A stretch of DNA of 43,904 nucleotides, from assembly GCA_945900945.1 (NCBI GenBank), contig CAMDKL010000031.1:1-43904 (forward strand), in the 5' to 3' direction. Source of the DNA: Pirellula staleyi DSM 6068. Its GTDB lineage: Bacteria > Planctomycetota > Planctomycetia > Pirellulales > Pirellulaceae. Under the pieces are notes generated by a model, which made no database searches, had not been told where the DNA came from, and was given only the letters and a program-made list of their open reading frames with translations. Made by a program: the position numbers and the translations under genes. Shown here piece by piece: positions 33,016 to 38,425 of this stretch (its first letter is position 1; each line of letters opens with the position of its first letter).

Positions 33016-33543
33016 CTAGTCAAGGGCCTCAACTACTTGAAGGCCCCAATGCACACCAAAAAGAGCAAAATCACCGCCGCCGCAGCCAGGATGATTACGA
33101 TCGGACTTGTGTTTGAGTCCCGGTCGACTATCGGCATAGCACAAAGGGCAGGACAAATTGCAATTGTCTGTGATTTCGAGAACGGCGACGCAGGTATGTT
33201 GCTCGTGTTCGGTGCATAACCCGCAATCGAGCGGACAGCCTTTGGAAGCCTCGACAAACGTTTTCTTGGGCAGTTTGGGCGGTAGGGCGTAATCGTAGCG
33301 ATCATACCAGCGTCGATCGCTACAAACAAAATCCTCGCGCAGTCCATGCGTCGCACAACGCTTTCGGAAAGAGACTCGTTTCCCTCGAGCGATAATCTTG
33401 GCAGGCACAACGCTCAAGCATTCCGGATACAGACTTTGTCTGGTGCCGAGAAAAGTATAGTTTCTAGAATCAAGCATCGAAGGCATCGCAGCGGCCAAGT
33501 CGAAAAGGGTCGAAAGAAAACAACCGTTCACGGCCTTCGGCAA
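33016..33543 (-). pseudogene. Truncated radical SAM protein, N-terminal part (Tes/MJ0619-like family)
   Basis: The frame encodes an N-terminal region with paired cysteines (YPECLSVVPAKI, KRCATHGLREDFVCSDRRWYDR), then GCPLDCGLCTEHEQHTC, then the radical SAM cluster motif CNLSCPLC in EITDNCNLSCPLCYADSRPG. This order matches the radical SAM group that includes archaeal MJ0619/tetraether lipid synthase (Tes). Members are usually over 450 residues, but here similarity ends right after the cluster motif (near 33115) and only about 30 unrelated residues follow. In a neighbouring frame the downstream DNA could encode a hydrophobic tail (IVIILAAAAVILLFLV) ending at 33033, so the gene may have been joined to another gene's end by a deletion. 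The likely original start is ATG 33477. It is not functional as a radical SAM enzyme. Confidence 0.7.
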
Positions 33544-33673: not shown

Positions 33674-34297
33674 TCACCGACGAGGTTGCGGAATTCCTTC
33701 TTGGAGCGATGCACGAGAGAAAAAACTGTGAATCGCAATCGTCAAGCCAATGGCTGCTCCAATCCAATGCGCAGAGGGTACAGGCGTAAAGGAACCGACA
33801 GCCACAAAGAGGTTGCTTCGTGTAAATAACTCAAACGTCATCTTGCCTATCATTCCCAGCAGCAACAATCCATACACGGCCAAACCGGTCCACTCACGCG
33901 CTTTCAGTTTTTGAATAAGCAATTCCCCAACCAAAAGCCCGTAAAGGGCAGTGTCAATTCCACTAAGGCCGCGATACGAAACAACACTCGGATCCATGCA
34001 AAGAACTCCTAGCGGGATCGCAATGGCTGCGAACAGTAGTGTCCAACGAAATGCCACTGGAGTTCTGCTTTCACATATGGCCGCCAGAGCGGCAAACATG
34101 GCAAGATCCCAAAATAGATGGTCGCCGGACCAATGTAGCCAATTGCAACCTATCACCTGATGAATCTCAAATCCTCGAAACTGGTTGAACTGGAATGCGA
34201 AGAGGGACTCGAATTCCTTTACTAAGAAAAGAAGTACGGCAATACAACTAAGCATACAGGTAATTGGAATTCGAAGGAAGTAATTCAGAGTGTTCAT
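33674..34297 (-). CDS. Rhombosortase-like rhomboid family serine protease
   Basis: The protein has 207 residues from the ATG at 34297 (GGGAGAG just upstream; an in-frame ATG six codons earlier is less likely). It has about six hydrophobic helices. The signature fits the rhombosortase branch of rhomboids: NWLHWSGDHLFWDLAMF (His and Asn/Asp positions, helix 2), YRGLSG with catalytic Ser112, and VPSAHWIGAAIGL with the partner His177. Rhombosortases act in the inner membrane and cleave proteins with GlyGly-CTERM tails. The adjacent upstream gene encodes a protein with just such a tail, so this is likely its dedicated processing enzyme. The two genes are on one strand, 113 bp apart. Confidence 0.78.
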   Translation of the reverse strand: MNTLNYFLRIPITCMLSCIAVLLFLVKEFESLFAFQFNQFRGFEIHQVIGCNWLHWSGDHLFWDLAMFAALAAICESRTPVAFRWTLLFAAIAIPLGVLCMDPSVVSYRGLSGIDTALYGLLVGELLIQKLKAREWTGLAVYGLLLLGMIGKMTFELFTRSNLFVAVGSFTPVPSAHWIGAAIGLTIAIHSFFSRASLQEGIPQPRR

Positions 34298-34410
34298 TGT
34301 CTCTCCCACGATCATGGCTGCTCGAATCGCGTGGCGGTTGCCTACGCGATTTAAAATCGTTACTTAGTTGATCGATGGACCGTCGTTTGGGTCATCGATT
34401 TTTGCAAGGA

Positions 34411-36624
34411 CTACGCGTCCGTTGCTACCCTCGTTTCAATGTTGTTGGTTGCACCCGTTTGCTTTTTCTTGCGACGATTCGCCCATGCTGCTGCACCAGC
34501 AAGTCCAGCCGCTAGCAACCCTGTGATAGGATCGATAGCACCGCCGCCGCCTCCGGAGCGAGTATTTCCACCTCTGTTGGAACTTGCGTGGTTACTTGAG
34601 CTATTTGCTGAAATAAAGTTCAAGTCCGTGGGCGAAGAAGGAGCTGAGGAGGTGATTTGGGGTTGTGAGCTGGTTCGTGTAGAGTCGGATGCGATGGGCG
34701 CGTCCGGACGACTAACTTGAGTCGTTACCAGCTTGGTCTCTTTAGGGCCGATGGCCGACAGCGACTCCTCTCTCATTCGTTCAAGCTGCGTTTGCAATTC
34801 CTTGCGAGCGGTATTGTCCCGTTGAACTCGTGTTGCATTGCGTTGCTGAATAGACCAACGTTTGTACTCACTATCATTTTCAAGCACAATGAAGGAAGCG
34901 TACTCGCTCACAATCGAATAGCCTTCGCAGAGTCGGACAATTTCTCCCTCGGTCGATTCAGAGGGGCCGTTCCTCCGCAGATTGTCCATGTGTTGTTGCA
35001 CTTGGCTAAAAGCCCACATCCTTTCGATCTCCGGATTCGCCTCTTCGGAAGCAGGTAACTGCGCTTTGACGTTTTGAACCATCGGCTGGCCCATCACTTC
35101 CGCGTTTACTGCAATGGCGATTTGACCTGATTTTTTGTAACGGCCGACCATACGAAGAGGCGAACCATAAAACAGATCGGGAAGCGTTTTTGGCAAAACG
35201 TCGTAGATTTCTACTCCTTCAAAAGAAATATTGACGTTGGTAGCTACAGGACGCATCAACTTGCGGCGAAACGCTTGTGACTGACGCATGAAGTCGTCTT
35301 GCTGCGATACAAATGCGGCCAAGCCACCTGCCCCTTCGGCTAGTTGCTTTAAAAGAGGACGATTCACATCGTTGCCTACTCCAATACAAAAGACCCGAGT
35401 GCCGGCAGGAGCTTTGCCGATAAGAGCAAGCAACTCGGCCTGCTCTTTATTCTCCGTCATCCCGTCAGAAAGAATGACCACGTTGAGCGGTCGGTCCGCG
35501 TCCTTGTACTTGTAGGCTGTCAACACGGCAGGACGTAGAACAGTGCCTCCCTTAGCGCGTTGAGCCAGTAAGAAGTCACCTGAGGTCCTCTTGGCCTCGT
35601 CTGTGACCGGCGTGAGGGACTGGAAATGTGTTTGGGGTGCACTGTTGAATGTCATTACCTCGAAACGGTCTTCCTTTTGAAGATCGCCGATAAACGCTTT
35701 TACGACATTGCGAGACAGTGTCAGCTTGCCTTCGTTTTCCATGCTTCCTGAGATGTCGACAACAAATACATAGTCCATGCCCGCTCCGTACTCCTTTAGC
35801 TCCTTGCCTGCAGCCATCGTCAACATGAAGTATCCGTCTTCATTGGACCGCTTGGAAGCAATGAGATCGATGCCAGTGTGAGGGCGCTCGGTATCGAACG
35901 CTACAACCACATCGCGGCTTAGGTCCCCCTGTGGAATCTCCAAGCTAGCTCGAGTGTAGTTTGGAGTGTGGTTTGTGATCGCGAACGCATTTTCGTGCGA
36001 AGGGCTGAAAAGTTTGGTGATTGGGATCTCGCTTTTGACGTCCAGCGTCATGGCGAATTTCCCGGTTGTCTTTTCGTTGACGGCTGCTCGCGTGGATGTT
36101 GCAAGGGGATAGACGTAGGTCGCGTTGTCGTGATCGAAGTCCAATTGTTGATAGTAGGTAATCTTGATGTGCTGTTCAGCACCGGCTGCAATCGGAAAAA
36201 CTCTCAATTCGAAACTCTTGTAGTCGACTTGTTCGAGCAAACCGGGATCGCGTTTAACGGCTTTGTAGCTCTCGTAAATCTGTCGTGCACGTTTCTTTTC
36301 GACTACTTCGCCAATCATCTCCTTGCCGTTGATGATCATGCTGAAGTTGCTGACGCTGGCACCATTGGGAACCGGGAAAGTGTACAGCGCCTCGACAATG
36401 CGCTTTTCCGTGTTCAAAAATACTTGTCGAATTTCGGTGACAGCGATCCCGTTGTTGATAACGACAGATACATCTTGCTCTTTAATTTCCAGCACGCCAC
36501 CTAGTCCGCCATCGGCAATTAACAAGCCCGATGCCTGCGTCTGCCGGACCGAACCACTTCCAACCGCGCTGAACAAAGCAGCCAAACAGATTGCTGGCCA
36601 CCAAAACTTGGACTTTGCATTCAT
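34411..36624 (-). CDS. VIT-VWA domain protein with a GlyGly-CTERM-like C-terminal signal
   Basis: The protein has 737 residues from the second of two adjacent ATGs (36624), with GAGGG 7 nt upstream; the frame is open for 102 more codons but those overlap the promoter. It has a signal peptide (FWWPAICLAALFSAVGSGS). A VIT domain (about 45-170, with ALYTFPVPNGASVSNF and ELRVFPIAAG) is followed by a von Willebrand A domain with the metal site DISGS at 290-294. After a Ser/Thr/Asn-rich stretch comes a run of five Gly, then a hydrophobic helix (ITGLLAAGLAGAAAWA), then NRRKKK and a 14-residue polar tail. That end is like a sorting signal cut by rhombosortase. Proteobacterial sortase targets of similar VIT-VWA design exist. 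It is preceded by a sigma-54 promoter. Confidence 0.85.
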   Translation of the reverse strand: MNAKSKFWWPAICLAALFSAVGSGSVRQTQASGLLIADGGLGGVLEIKEQDVSVVINNGIAVTEIRQVFLNTEKRIVEALYTFPVPNGASVSNFSMIINGKEMIGEVVEKKRARQIYESYKAVKRDPGLLEQVDYKSFELRVFPIAAGAEQHIKITYYQQLDFDHDNATYVYPLATSTRAAVNEKTTGKFAMTLDVKSEIPITKLFSPSHENAFAITNHTPNYTRASLEIPQGDLSRDVVVAFDTERPHTGIDLIASKRSNEDGYFMLTMAAGKELKEYGAGMDYVFVVDISGSMENEGKLTLSRNVVKAFIGDLQKEDRFEVMTFNSAPQTHFQSLTPVTDEAKRTSGDFLLAQRAKGGTVLRPAVLTAYKYKDADRPLNVVILSDGMTENKEQAELLALIGKAPAGTRVFCIGVGNDVNRPLLKQLAEGAGGLAAFVSQQDDFMRQSQAFRRKLMRPVATNVNISFEGVEIYDVLPKTLPDLFYGSPLRMVGRYKKSGQIAIAVNAEVMGQPMVQNVKAQLPASEEANPEIERMWAFSQVQQHMDNLRRNGPSESTEGEIVRLCEGYSIVSEYASFIVLENDSEYKRWSIQQRNATRVQRDNTARKELQTQLERMREESLSAIGPKETKLVTTQVSRPDAPIASDSTRTSSQPQITSSAPSSPTDLNFISANSSSNHASSNRGGNTRSGGGGGAIDPITGLLAAGLAGAAAWANRRKKKQTGATNNIETRVATDA

Positions 36625-36674
36625 CATTCTGCCCTCAATAAAGTTAATTAACCTGAAACACTTTCCTTGCTTAA

Positions 36675-36690
36675 AGCACATTGAGTGCCA
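36675..36690 (-). promoter_or_regulatory. Sigma-54 (-24/-12) promoter of the VIT-VWA gene
   Basis: The minus strand reads TGGCACTCAATGTGCT. Against TGGCACG-N4-TTGCA the full TGGCAC half is present and the GC half has TGC at the right place, with the invariant GG and GC 10 bp apart. The expected start of transcription is near 36665, giving a leader of about 40 nt to the ATG at 36624. The divergent gene encodes a sigma-54 activator. Confidence 0.75.
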
Positions 36691-36692
36691 AA

Positions 36693-36737
36693 CGAGTCTG
36701 CTACTCGCAAGCTGCTTGCAGCACAGGGTTTGCGAGT
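36693..36737. promoter_or_regulatory. Nested inverted repeats just upstream of the sigma-54 promoter
   Basis: ACTCGCAA (36703-36710) and TTGCGAGT (36730-36737) form a perfect 8-bp inverted repeat. CGAGT (36693-36697) also pairs with ACTCG (36703-36707). They sit about 30-70 bp upstream of the predicted start site and could be an operator or a second regulator's site. Confidence 0.45.
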
Positions 36738-36775
36738 TTTCGAGGCAGTAAAAATAAAACCATAGTGGTTTATAA

Positions 36776-36814
36776 TGTGCGCAGGATGTGCACTCTATGT
36801 GCATTGAATGTACA
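36776..36814. promoter_or_regulatory. Four TGTGCA repeats at exact 11-bp spacing, likely activator-binding sites
   Basis: TGTGCG (36776), TGTGCA (36787), TGTGCA (36798) and TGTACA (36809) start every 11 bp, each preceded by A; a weaker fifth (TGTGTC) is at 36821. They lie about 111-149 bp upstream of the predicted sigma-54 start site, where enhancer sites normally lie, and on one face of the helix. They also fall just before the activator gene, allowing self-regulation. They overlap a possible GTG start at 36788, which argues for the later start at 36875. Confidence 0.65.
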
Positions 36815-36874
36815 CTTGCTTGTGTCGAATGGCAAAACATCGAATCACTTCTCGAACCATTGGAAAGCGAGTCC

Positions 36875-38425
36875 ATGAACTTAATCAAACGATCGGAGCT
36901 CCCGTTTGTGCGGGCAGTCTCACAGCTCAATTACGCAAACCCTTTTTTGCAGCAACGACTTGATCTCGAGCGCGCGGCACTTGGGCAGGATTTCGTGACA
37001 GAGCTTCACCCCTTTTGGAGTTTTGCGGCGAATGAGACGAAAAGTCGTAGGGCAAACGTATTAAGAATCGCACAAAGAGTTGCACCAATTGCGAAAACGA
37101 TACGAGCGAAGCTTCTTGCGGGAGAACCTGCAACCGACGAGGAGCTCGAATGGTACGATGACCTAGCCCTCTACATTCTGTTCTATGAATTATTCGACGA
37201 CTGGGGGCAATTGAGTCCGCCAAGTTTCAAGGACATAACAGTTTGCCAGGAAGAAGTCTGGAAGCGGTTTGCCAAAGCGTTTGAATATTGGCTTGGGCTG
37301 CCTGGTCTACAGTTGCCATCCTCGGCACAGGTTCTACACCTATTTGCCCTATTCAATCAGATCTACCGTGCATTCTACAACATCTTTGAATGTGTGATTG
37401 GTCAATCGCTACCAGCGGCAAACCTTCGGGCGCAAATATGGCAATCGATATTTACGCATGATCTGCGGCGCTATCGACGAAGTCTCTATCGAACGATGCA
37501 TCACGTTACAACGTTGGTGATTGGTCCGAGCGGCAGCGGCAAAGAGCTTGTGGCTCAAGCGATTGGGATGTCGCGTTATATTCCGTTCGATCCGAAATCC
37601 AGACGATTCGCGACACAGCCGGCGGAAAGCTATTTTGCGATCAACATATCGGCGTTCTCGACTAGCGTGATTGAATCCGAGTTGTTTGGTCACGCCAAGG
37701 GTGCCTTTACGGACGCGTCGAGTACGAGAGCGGGTTGGCTGGACGCCTGCGGTGAACACGGCTCTTTACTTCTGGACGAGATTGGCGAACTAGAGCCGAC
37801 CACTCAAGTCAAGCTATTGCGAGTATTGCAAAATCGCCAGTACCAACGCTTGGGCGAAACCAAAATTCGAGAATTTCAAGGAAAAATTATCGCAGCGACG
37901 AACCGAAACTTGGGGTTCGAGATCGAGCAGCGTACATTCCGCGAAGATTTATACTACCGATTGTGTGCCGATGTCATTGAGACACCCACATTGTTCAGTC
38001 AATTACAAGACAATCCAGCAGTTTTAGCGAACATCGTAGCGTACATTGCCAAACGCATTGCTCCCGACGAGCAAACGACATTGACCTCCGAAGTGGTAGA
38101 GTGGTTGCAAAGGCATATGCCGTCCGGTTACCAATGGCCCGGCAACATTCGGGAATTAGAGCAGTGTGTTCGTAATATCATGATCCGCGATCATTACGCT
38201 CCGTCCCCCAGTGCGGCGATCGCGAGCGGAGAAGCCAAGAATTCGCGAGTGGATTCAGAGTCCTTAGAATTAGCAAAGGACATCCACTCGATTTCGTTGA
38301 CCGCAGATGAGTTGCTGCAACGATATTGCCGGATTGCTTACCGGCAAACCAAGAGTTTTGAAAAAGCAGCCAAACTTTTGCAATTGGATCGGCGGACGGT
38401 TCGTGCGAAGGTAGATACGGTTTAG
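36875..38425 (+). CDS. Sigma-54-dependent transcription activator with a novel N-terminal domain
   Basis: The protein has 516 residues from ATG 36875. The frame extends upstream to 36788, but that part is the repeat array. N-terminal region 1-205: helical, no receiver, GAF or PAS motif visible, rich in Trp, Tyr and Phe. AAA+ region: Walker A GPSGSGKE at 217-224, the loop GAFTDA at 276-281 where GAFTGA is normal, Walker B SLLLDEIGELEP, and the FREDLYYRL sensor block. C-terminal helix-turn-helix (KSFEKAAKLLQLDRRTVRAKV) of Fis type. It should bind enhancer sites and drive sigma-54 RNA polymerase. The Gly-to-Asp change in the sigma-contacting loop is unusual, but the essential Thr is kept. It is divergent from the VIT-VWA gene, its probable target. 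Confidence 0.88.
   Translation: MNLIKRSELPFVRAVSQLNYANPFLQQRLDLERAALGQDFVTELHPFWSFAANETKSRRANVLRIAQRVAPIAKTIRAKLLAGEPATDEELEWYDDLALYILFYELFDDWGQLSPPSFKDITVCQEEVWKRFAKAFEYWLGLPGLQLPSSAQVLHLFALFNQIYRAFYNIFECVIGQSLPAANLRAQIWQSIFTHDLRRYRRSLYRTMHHVTTLVIGPSGSGKELVAQAIGMSRYIPFDPKSRRFATQPAESYFAINISAFSTSVIESELFGHAKGAFTDASSTRAGWLDACGEHGSLLLDEIGELEPTTQVKLLRVLQNRQYQRLGETKIREFQGKIIAATNRNLGFEIEQRTFREDLYYRLCADVIETPTLFSQLQDNPAVLANIVAYIAKRIAPDEQTTLTSEVVEWLQRHMPSGYQWPGNIRELEQCVRNIMIRDHYAPSPSAAIASGEAKNSRVDSESLELAKDIHSISLTADELLQRYCRIAYRQTKSFEKAAKLLQLDRRTVRAKVDTV

Follow-up and report, generated by a model that had tools for sequence, protein, structure and literature searches.

The window analyzed here, a stretch of 43,904 nucleotides of planctomycete DNA, contains a VIT-VWA secreted protein gene followed by a rhombosortase-type protease gene and faced by a divergent sigma-54 activator gene, and we estimate, judging from sequence, a probability of around 80% that this locus forms a unit dedicated to protein sorting that is controlled locally through sigma-54. 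The genes, the catalytic residues of the protease, the sorting tail of its neighbor, the promoter element and a box array are all read directly in the DNA, and comparison with relatives adds the frequent co-inheritance of the genes. The first-pass annotation of the window had inferred one regulated surface-protein processing unit, a view strengthened by the co-occurrence of the genes and by the conservation of the promoter and the box array. It had also called the unit self-contained, which agrees with the adjacency of the VIT-VWA and rhomboid genes (73 of 75 loci) but not with the regulator side, which is not closed, since 22 of 68 loci lack a divergent activator and other target genes exist.

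The VIT-VWA protein and the rhombosortase

The VIT-VWA gene (positions 34411-36627, reverse strand) codes for a protein of 738 aa from the ATG at 36627, which was taken as the start after setting aside the TTG of the longest frame. Its VIT domain (36154-36486) scores 106.4 bits against PF08487, while the VWA domain (35284-35769) is recognized by VWA models at 37.6-63.7 bits, including PF13768 (63.7 bits) and PF00092 (54.8 bits). By eye, a DxSGS metal-site motif is present and the N-terminus resembles a signal peptide. The gene is the sole VIT match in the 6.47-Mb genome at E≤0.001.

The C-terminal sorting tail (34453-34557, reverse strand; GGGGGAIDPITGLLAAGLAGAAAWANRRKKK) is formed by a Gly-rich motif, GGAIDP, a hydrophobic stretch and a basic end, RRKKK. 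This is the tripartite layout of GlyGly-CTERM; it is conserved in the alignment, with the residues G-G-A-I-D-P invariant in 10/10 aligned near relatives. When isolated, the tail reaches 21.1 bits with the NCBI GlyGly-CTERM model TIGR03867 (cut-off 19.7) and gives no match to TIGR03501; the whole VIT-VWA protein matches neither model at E≤1. By its sequence the tail is a GG-A-[IVLFM]-D-P variant of GlyGly-CTERM that the NCBI GlyGly-CTERM models list weakly or not at all. The GlyGly-CTERM-like tail of the first reading stands as regards the tripartite layout, but it is this variant and not a plain GlyGly-CTERM. A second copy of the 35-residue tail was not found in the genome at E≤10.

The next gene, as already proposed, codes for a rhombosortase-type rhomboid intramembrane serine protease of 213 aa (33674-34315, reverse strand). 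Its match to the rhombosortase model TIGR03902 lies at the cut-off and is thus marginal (84.0 bits, E 1.1e-23, cut-off 84; 84.8 bits in the genome search), and the catalytic motifs are present, with the predicted Ser at codon 33962-33964 (YRGLSG) and the predicted His at codon 33767-33769 (AHWIGA). The GxSG Ser and the HxxG His are invariant in 52/52 aligned rhomboid sequences, window included. One rhombosortase over the cut-off was found in the genome, plus one weaker rhomboid (54.8 bits). The gene lies 95 bp behind the VIT-VWA gene, and no terminator-like site was detected in the gap. Prediction of sigma-70-type promoters and terminators between 33400 and 37000 was uninformative (2 and 5 found, compared with 2.7 and 4.6 expected). 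Directly behind the rhombosortase gene there is a 175-aa frame (33016-33543, reverse strand) with a zinc ribbon, which looks like a truncated gene because its similarity to TrsS/tetraether lipid synthase-like radical SAM proteins covers approximately their first quarter only.

The divergent activator and the control DNA of the window

The divergent gene (36875-38425, forward strand) codes, in agreement with the initial assignment, for a sigma-54 activator (bEBP) of 516 aa, which consists of a helical N-terminal domain, an AAA+ domain and a Fis-like C-terminus. The AAA+ domain scores 152.3 bits against Sigma54_activat (PF00158), and the alignment shows the motifs GPSGSGKE, LLLDEIGE and FREDLYYR, which we take to be the Walker A/B and arginine finger region. 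The Fis domain PF02954 stays at 12.3 bits (cut-off 22), and the C-terminus is helical in the AlphaFold2 model. A start at GTG 36788 was dropped in favour of ATG 36875, because the former lies inside the box array described below and relatives align from the latter. At the sigma-54 contact loop (37700-37717) the window and 5/53 relatives carry GAFTDA, the others having GAFTGA or close variants; all GAFTDA activators fall within one clade of 11, which also has GAFTGA members.

In the AlphaFold2 model (54 sequences, mean pLDDT 91.9) the AAA+ domain resembles those of FleQ and NtrC1, and the N-terminal domain (36875-37489, forward strand), a putative sensor, is made of eight helices. Against Pfam at E≤0.01, this domain had no match in its window version and a single weak one when 52 family members were compared, and the PDB contained neither a sequence relative (best E 0.2) nor a fold match at E≤0.001 (best 0.34). 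Since no receiver domain was found among the Pfam matches of the activator at E≤1, its signal is probably not a phosphorelay. The activator family is present as one match in 46 and as two in 5 of the 51 class genomes that carry it.

Between the activator and VIT-VWA genes there are two elements. A sigma-54 -24/-12 element (36675-36690, reverse strand; TGGCACTCAATGTGCT) precedes the VIT-VWA and rhombosortase genes, and one sigma-54 gene, rpoN, was found in the genome. The promoter announced by the first-pass annotation is present and conserved before relatives, but within the window alone the match does not exceed chance (2 matches with one mismatch in 44 kb, where 1.75 would be expected); it is its recurrence at a like place in relatives that makes it convincing. 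The second element, the proposed operator of the activator (36776-36814), is formed by four TGTRCR boxes with an exact 11-bp spacing, namely TGTGCG, TGTGCA, TGTGCA and TGTACA at 36776, 36787, 36798 and 36809. It sits 86-124 bp upstream of the -24 element, so that the phased repeat array at enhancer distance noted previously is confirmed. The exact double box TGTRCA-N5-TGTRCA occurs twice in the window and in none of 100 shuffles, and the same two are the only exact double boxes genome-wide. With up to one mismatch the genome has 47 double boxes (20 on the forward and 27 on the reverse strand, the two exact ones included), compared with 49 in the reversed control, so that the double box is not telling alone at this scale, and further regulon members, for which it was considered, are not claimed. 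When at most one mismatch is allowed, the triple box gives two overlapping matches in the genome, both at this locus, and none in the control.

Conservation of genes, control DNA and tails

Relatives were obtained by screening contigs from 84,980 species for two peptide patterns conserved in the VIT-VWA family, which favour close relatives, and the best 80 of 116 confirmed loci were used; nearly all have MAG in their titles, and taxon names are given as deposited. Within these best 80 of 116, a rhomboid adjoins the VIT-VWA gene downstream in 73/75 loci with at least 1 kb of downstream sequence, the two exceptions being L159 and L164, and the activator family is divergent in 46/68 loci with at least 2 kb upstream; among the 22 without it, L124 has an activator downstream. 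Against the rhombosortase model, the rhomboids of six relatives, picked across the two tail classes described below, score 77.4-108.6 bits, and four of the six exceed the cut-off. The arrangement is, from the sequences compared, one that recurs in several phyla beyond planctomycetes. The neighbourhood comparison suggested along with the first reading hence turned out in its favour: in relatives the VIT-VWA, rhomboid and activator genes are found together, frequently side by side.

Co-occurrence was also evaluated at the genome level. Among the 60 nearest genomes (window's included), the activator is present at E<1e-100 in 17 (in G014 only partially) and a rhombosortase scoring above 76 bits in 12, with both genes in 10 and neither in 41. 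In G014 a rhombosortase lies about 120 bp from an activator matching only from around residue 256 (locus L018, 419-2223), on a 3-kb contig without a VIT gene, which could reflect a deletion or an assembly fault. In 397 class genomes, counting the activator at E≤1e-80 among the best 3 and rhombosortase at E≤1e-15 among the best 8 first-look candidates per genome, the activator was found in 51 and rhombosortase in 33: both in 20, rhombosortase only in 13, activator only in 31 and neither in 333. This corresponds to a Fisher odds ratio of 16.5 (p 6e-12), in a test that ignores the relatedness of the genomes. Where both are present, they are divergent within about 4.1 kb in 11 genomes, on different contigs in 8 and far apart in one (G377). 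Neither half requires the other, since 22/68 loci are without a divergent activator and 31/51 activator genomes gave no rhombosortase.

The intergenic regions between activator and VIT genes (49, i.e. those of 48 loci plus the window) were then compared for the elements of the control DNA. A pair of TGTACA boxes 11 bp apart (up to two mismatches) is present in 38/49, the shuffles having a mean of 0.3 and a maximum of 1, and absent from 11/49; after removal of near-copies the pair is found in 33/44. Box spacing peaks at 11 bp (28 regions), 22 (10) and 33 (6). Upstream of VIT genes the pair occurs in 29/40 loci with the activator and in 8/31 without an activator in view, and in 7/422 control regions upstream of other long frames of the same loci. 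A sigma-54 score of at least 14 was obtained for 27/66 VIT upstream regions, 66 being the number left by the rule used to locate VIT starts, which dropped loci, against 0.87 in shuffles. A second set kept 73 regions, 71 of them long enough. In the comparison by activator, the score was reached in 17/40 with a divergent activator, 13/31 without it and 20/422 controls. The element being equally common in both groups, the promoter alone does not point to the activator; taken together, these counts indicate that the promoter is conserved regardless, while the boxes follow the activator. In 26/30 regions with both features the nearest box pair starts 96-128 bp before the sigma-54 element. Similar control DNA accompanies the activator family elsewhere, with a sigma-54 score of at least 14 in 20 and box pairs in 19 of 30 activator loci of class genomes; for the 19 loci where the facing gene is not a VIT gene, a hand count gave 14 and 9, respectively.

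Two tail classes can be distinguished among the 79 loci with a usable rhomboid. Most planctomycetes have the GG-A-[IVLFM]-D-[PW]-type tail (57 loci), as do three Thermodesulfobacteriota. The GPVGP-like class (21 loci, one locus having another tail) includes six Thermodesulfobacteriota, five Planctomycetota (four titled Phycisphaerae or Phycisphaerales), three Verrucomicrobiota, two Nitrospirota, one Chlamydiota and others. In a test of four tails drawn from the GGAxDP and GPVGP classes, one came up with TIGR03867 and none with TIGR03501. The rhombosortase tree requires 2 changes of tail class, the minimum, compared with 19.8 when shuffled, and the VIT core tree (in which 18 rows have fallback boundaries) 3 changes compared with 22.4. 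As the VIT core tree needs just 3 changes, the tracking of tail and rhombosortase may reflect only their joint inheritance, and the co-variation was rejected as proof of specificity because co-inheritance explains most of the match. The activators of four non-planctomycete GGAxDP loci (L124, L129, L134, L135) group with those of GPVGP loci, indicating that the regulator has at times moved separately from the processing pair.

Mechanism, alternatives and known systems

From these features we infer a course of events comprising activator binding, sigma-54 dependence, co-transcription, cleavage, surface delivery and a signal. The activator made from the divergent gene would bind as an oligomer to the TGTRCA boxes repeated every helical turn and act from 86-124 bp upstream of the sigma-54 promoter, and a signal received by its N-terminal helical domain would cause the AAA+ domain to open the promoter. 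The VIT-VWA and rhombosortase genes would be transcribed together from it. The signal peptide would export the VIT-VWA protein and the C-terminal hydrophobic stretch would hold it in the inner membrane, where the co-made rhombosortase may cut the Gly-Gly-Ala-Ile-Asp-Pro motif, the protein being released or re-anchored for the cell surface. Six secretin matches in the genome (6.47 Mb, 313 contigs, 99.96% complete) make outer-membrane passage possible.

The activator and the processing pair could instead be mere neighbours, the former controlling itself and distant genes and the latter depending on another promoter or activator. The absence of rhombosortase from 31/51 activator genomes and of the activator from 13/33 rhombosortase genomes would fit such an arrangement, as would the sigma-54 element being equally common without a divergent activator (13/31). 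We regard it as improbable, however, given that the element is directed at the VIT gene, that the boxes are located between the two genes, that several phyla show the arrangement and that the triple box is nowhere else in the genome. A similarly low probability is assigned to the boxes binding a different regulator, such as a repressor, and not the divergent activator. Binding by the activator is putative, and box pairs exist in 8/31 loci without a divergent activator in view, two of which (L139, L142) have less than 400 bp upstream and another (L124) an activator downstream; against this, box presence follows the activator (29/40 vs 8/31) and box pairs precede non-VIT neighbours of the activator family in 9/19 loci by hand count.

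Rhomboids also act in shedding, and cleavage is here a prediction, so the rhomboid might degrade or shed the VIT-VWA protein or cut another substrate, with the tail serving as a membrane anchor only. This seems unlikely, if slightly less so than the two previous possibilities: one such tail and one rhombosortase over the cut-off were found in the genome, the rhomboid is adjacent in 73/75 loci, the tail class follows the rhombosortase clade, and there is the precedent of VesB in Vibrio, where the second Gly, once exposed by rhombosortase, bears a glycerophosphoethanolamine-containing group (PMC6219818). A sorting unit under local sigma-54 control is the reading we retain.

The pairing of protease and target is already known. 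In the paper by Haft and Varghese (2011; PMC3237569), dedicated GlyGly-CTERM/rhombosortase pairs are described, VWA/VIT proteins with GlyGly-CTERM, LPXTG or PEP-CTERM tails are shown, and Table 3 lists Rhodopirellula baltica with a single GlyGly-CTERM protein adjoining its rhombosortase. The statement that the unit was not described in planctomycetes has to be narrowed accordingly, as a rhombosortase/single-target pair was on record in 2011, but it still applies to the activator, which that text does not mention: the word 'sigma' has 0 occurrences in it and it contains no regulator of this kind. The window shares with those pairs one target beside one rhombosortase, TIGR03902, the tripartite tail and, as in some of their targets, VWA/VIT domains, and differs in the local sigma-54 activator and in the variant tail. 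PEP-CTERM/exosortase systems likewise express sorted proteins from sigma-54 promoters that have an upstream activator motif: proteobacterial PEP-CTERM genes have sigma-54 sites and PrsK/PrsR regulators (Haft et al. 2006; PMC1569441). PrsR is nevertheless a response regulator with a kinase, and its site lies before many PEP-CTERM genes (99/167, proteobacteria), whereas the activator of the window is divergent and local, has no receiver domain among its matches, scores 158.5 bits against the PrsR model TIGR02915 (cut-off 502.6) and accompanies a rhomboid protease. The marine proteobacterial sortase target TIGR03788 has a homologous core (237.8 bits, below the cut-off of 551.65) and a gene beside its sorting enzyme, but here rhombosortase and GGAIDP take the place of sortase and an LPXTG-type tail. 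The AAA+ domain is that of NtrC-type sigma-54 activators (FleQ, NtrC1, RtcR) in sequence and predicted fold, unlike the N-terminal domain, which has no Pfam or PDB match at the thresholds applied; the best NCBIfam model is RtcR, at 179.7 bits (cut-off 650). A study by Studholme and Dixon in 2004 on Pirellula activators may deal with relatives of this one.

No paper was found on rhombosortase together with sigma-54 or RpoN, nor, among the entries listed in a wider literature search, a description of such a unit, in both cases with most subscription papers outside the search. As far as searched, the activator family with its helical N-terminal domain and its operator appear to be new, as do the two tail classes tracking rhombosortase clades and the recurrence beyond planctomycetes. 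The locus would unite two known themes, the rhombosortase with its dedicated target and the sorted surface protein controlled by sigma-54, in a single compact unit present in several phyla, and offers a concrete operator sequence, promoter and regulator for testing. The predicted sensor domain being without known relative, the signal calling for the surface protein can be sought directly, and the two tail codes constitute a natural experiment on rhombosortase substrate choice.

A broader proposal, for and against which we see the balance as even, is that of a portable envelope-sensing switch: an undescribed activator family marked by a novel helical sensor domain and by TGTACA boxes spaced one helical turn apart, set before a surface protein and its adjacent rhombosortase in planctomycetes as well as in records deposited as Thermodesulfobacteriota, Verrucomicrobiota, Nitrospirota and Chlamydiota, and elsewhere before unrelated genes (a large, apparently polytopic membrane protein, a radical SAM enzyme), with the tail codes GGAxDP and GPVGP matched to different rhombosortase kinds. 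The activator is divergent to the apparently polytopic protein in L072, L075, L199, L201, L205 and L210, with a sigma-54 element and a box pair in front of the gene; the proteins of L072 and L075 have no Pfam match, and the other four were grouped with them by eye. In L076, L078 and L081, which belong to the same genus as the window, the gene opposite the activator is of radical SAM type and not VIT-VWA, the radical SAM Pfam match being over the cut-off in L081 and below it in L076, with L078 alike by eye.
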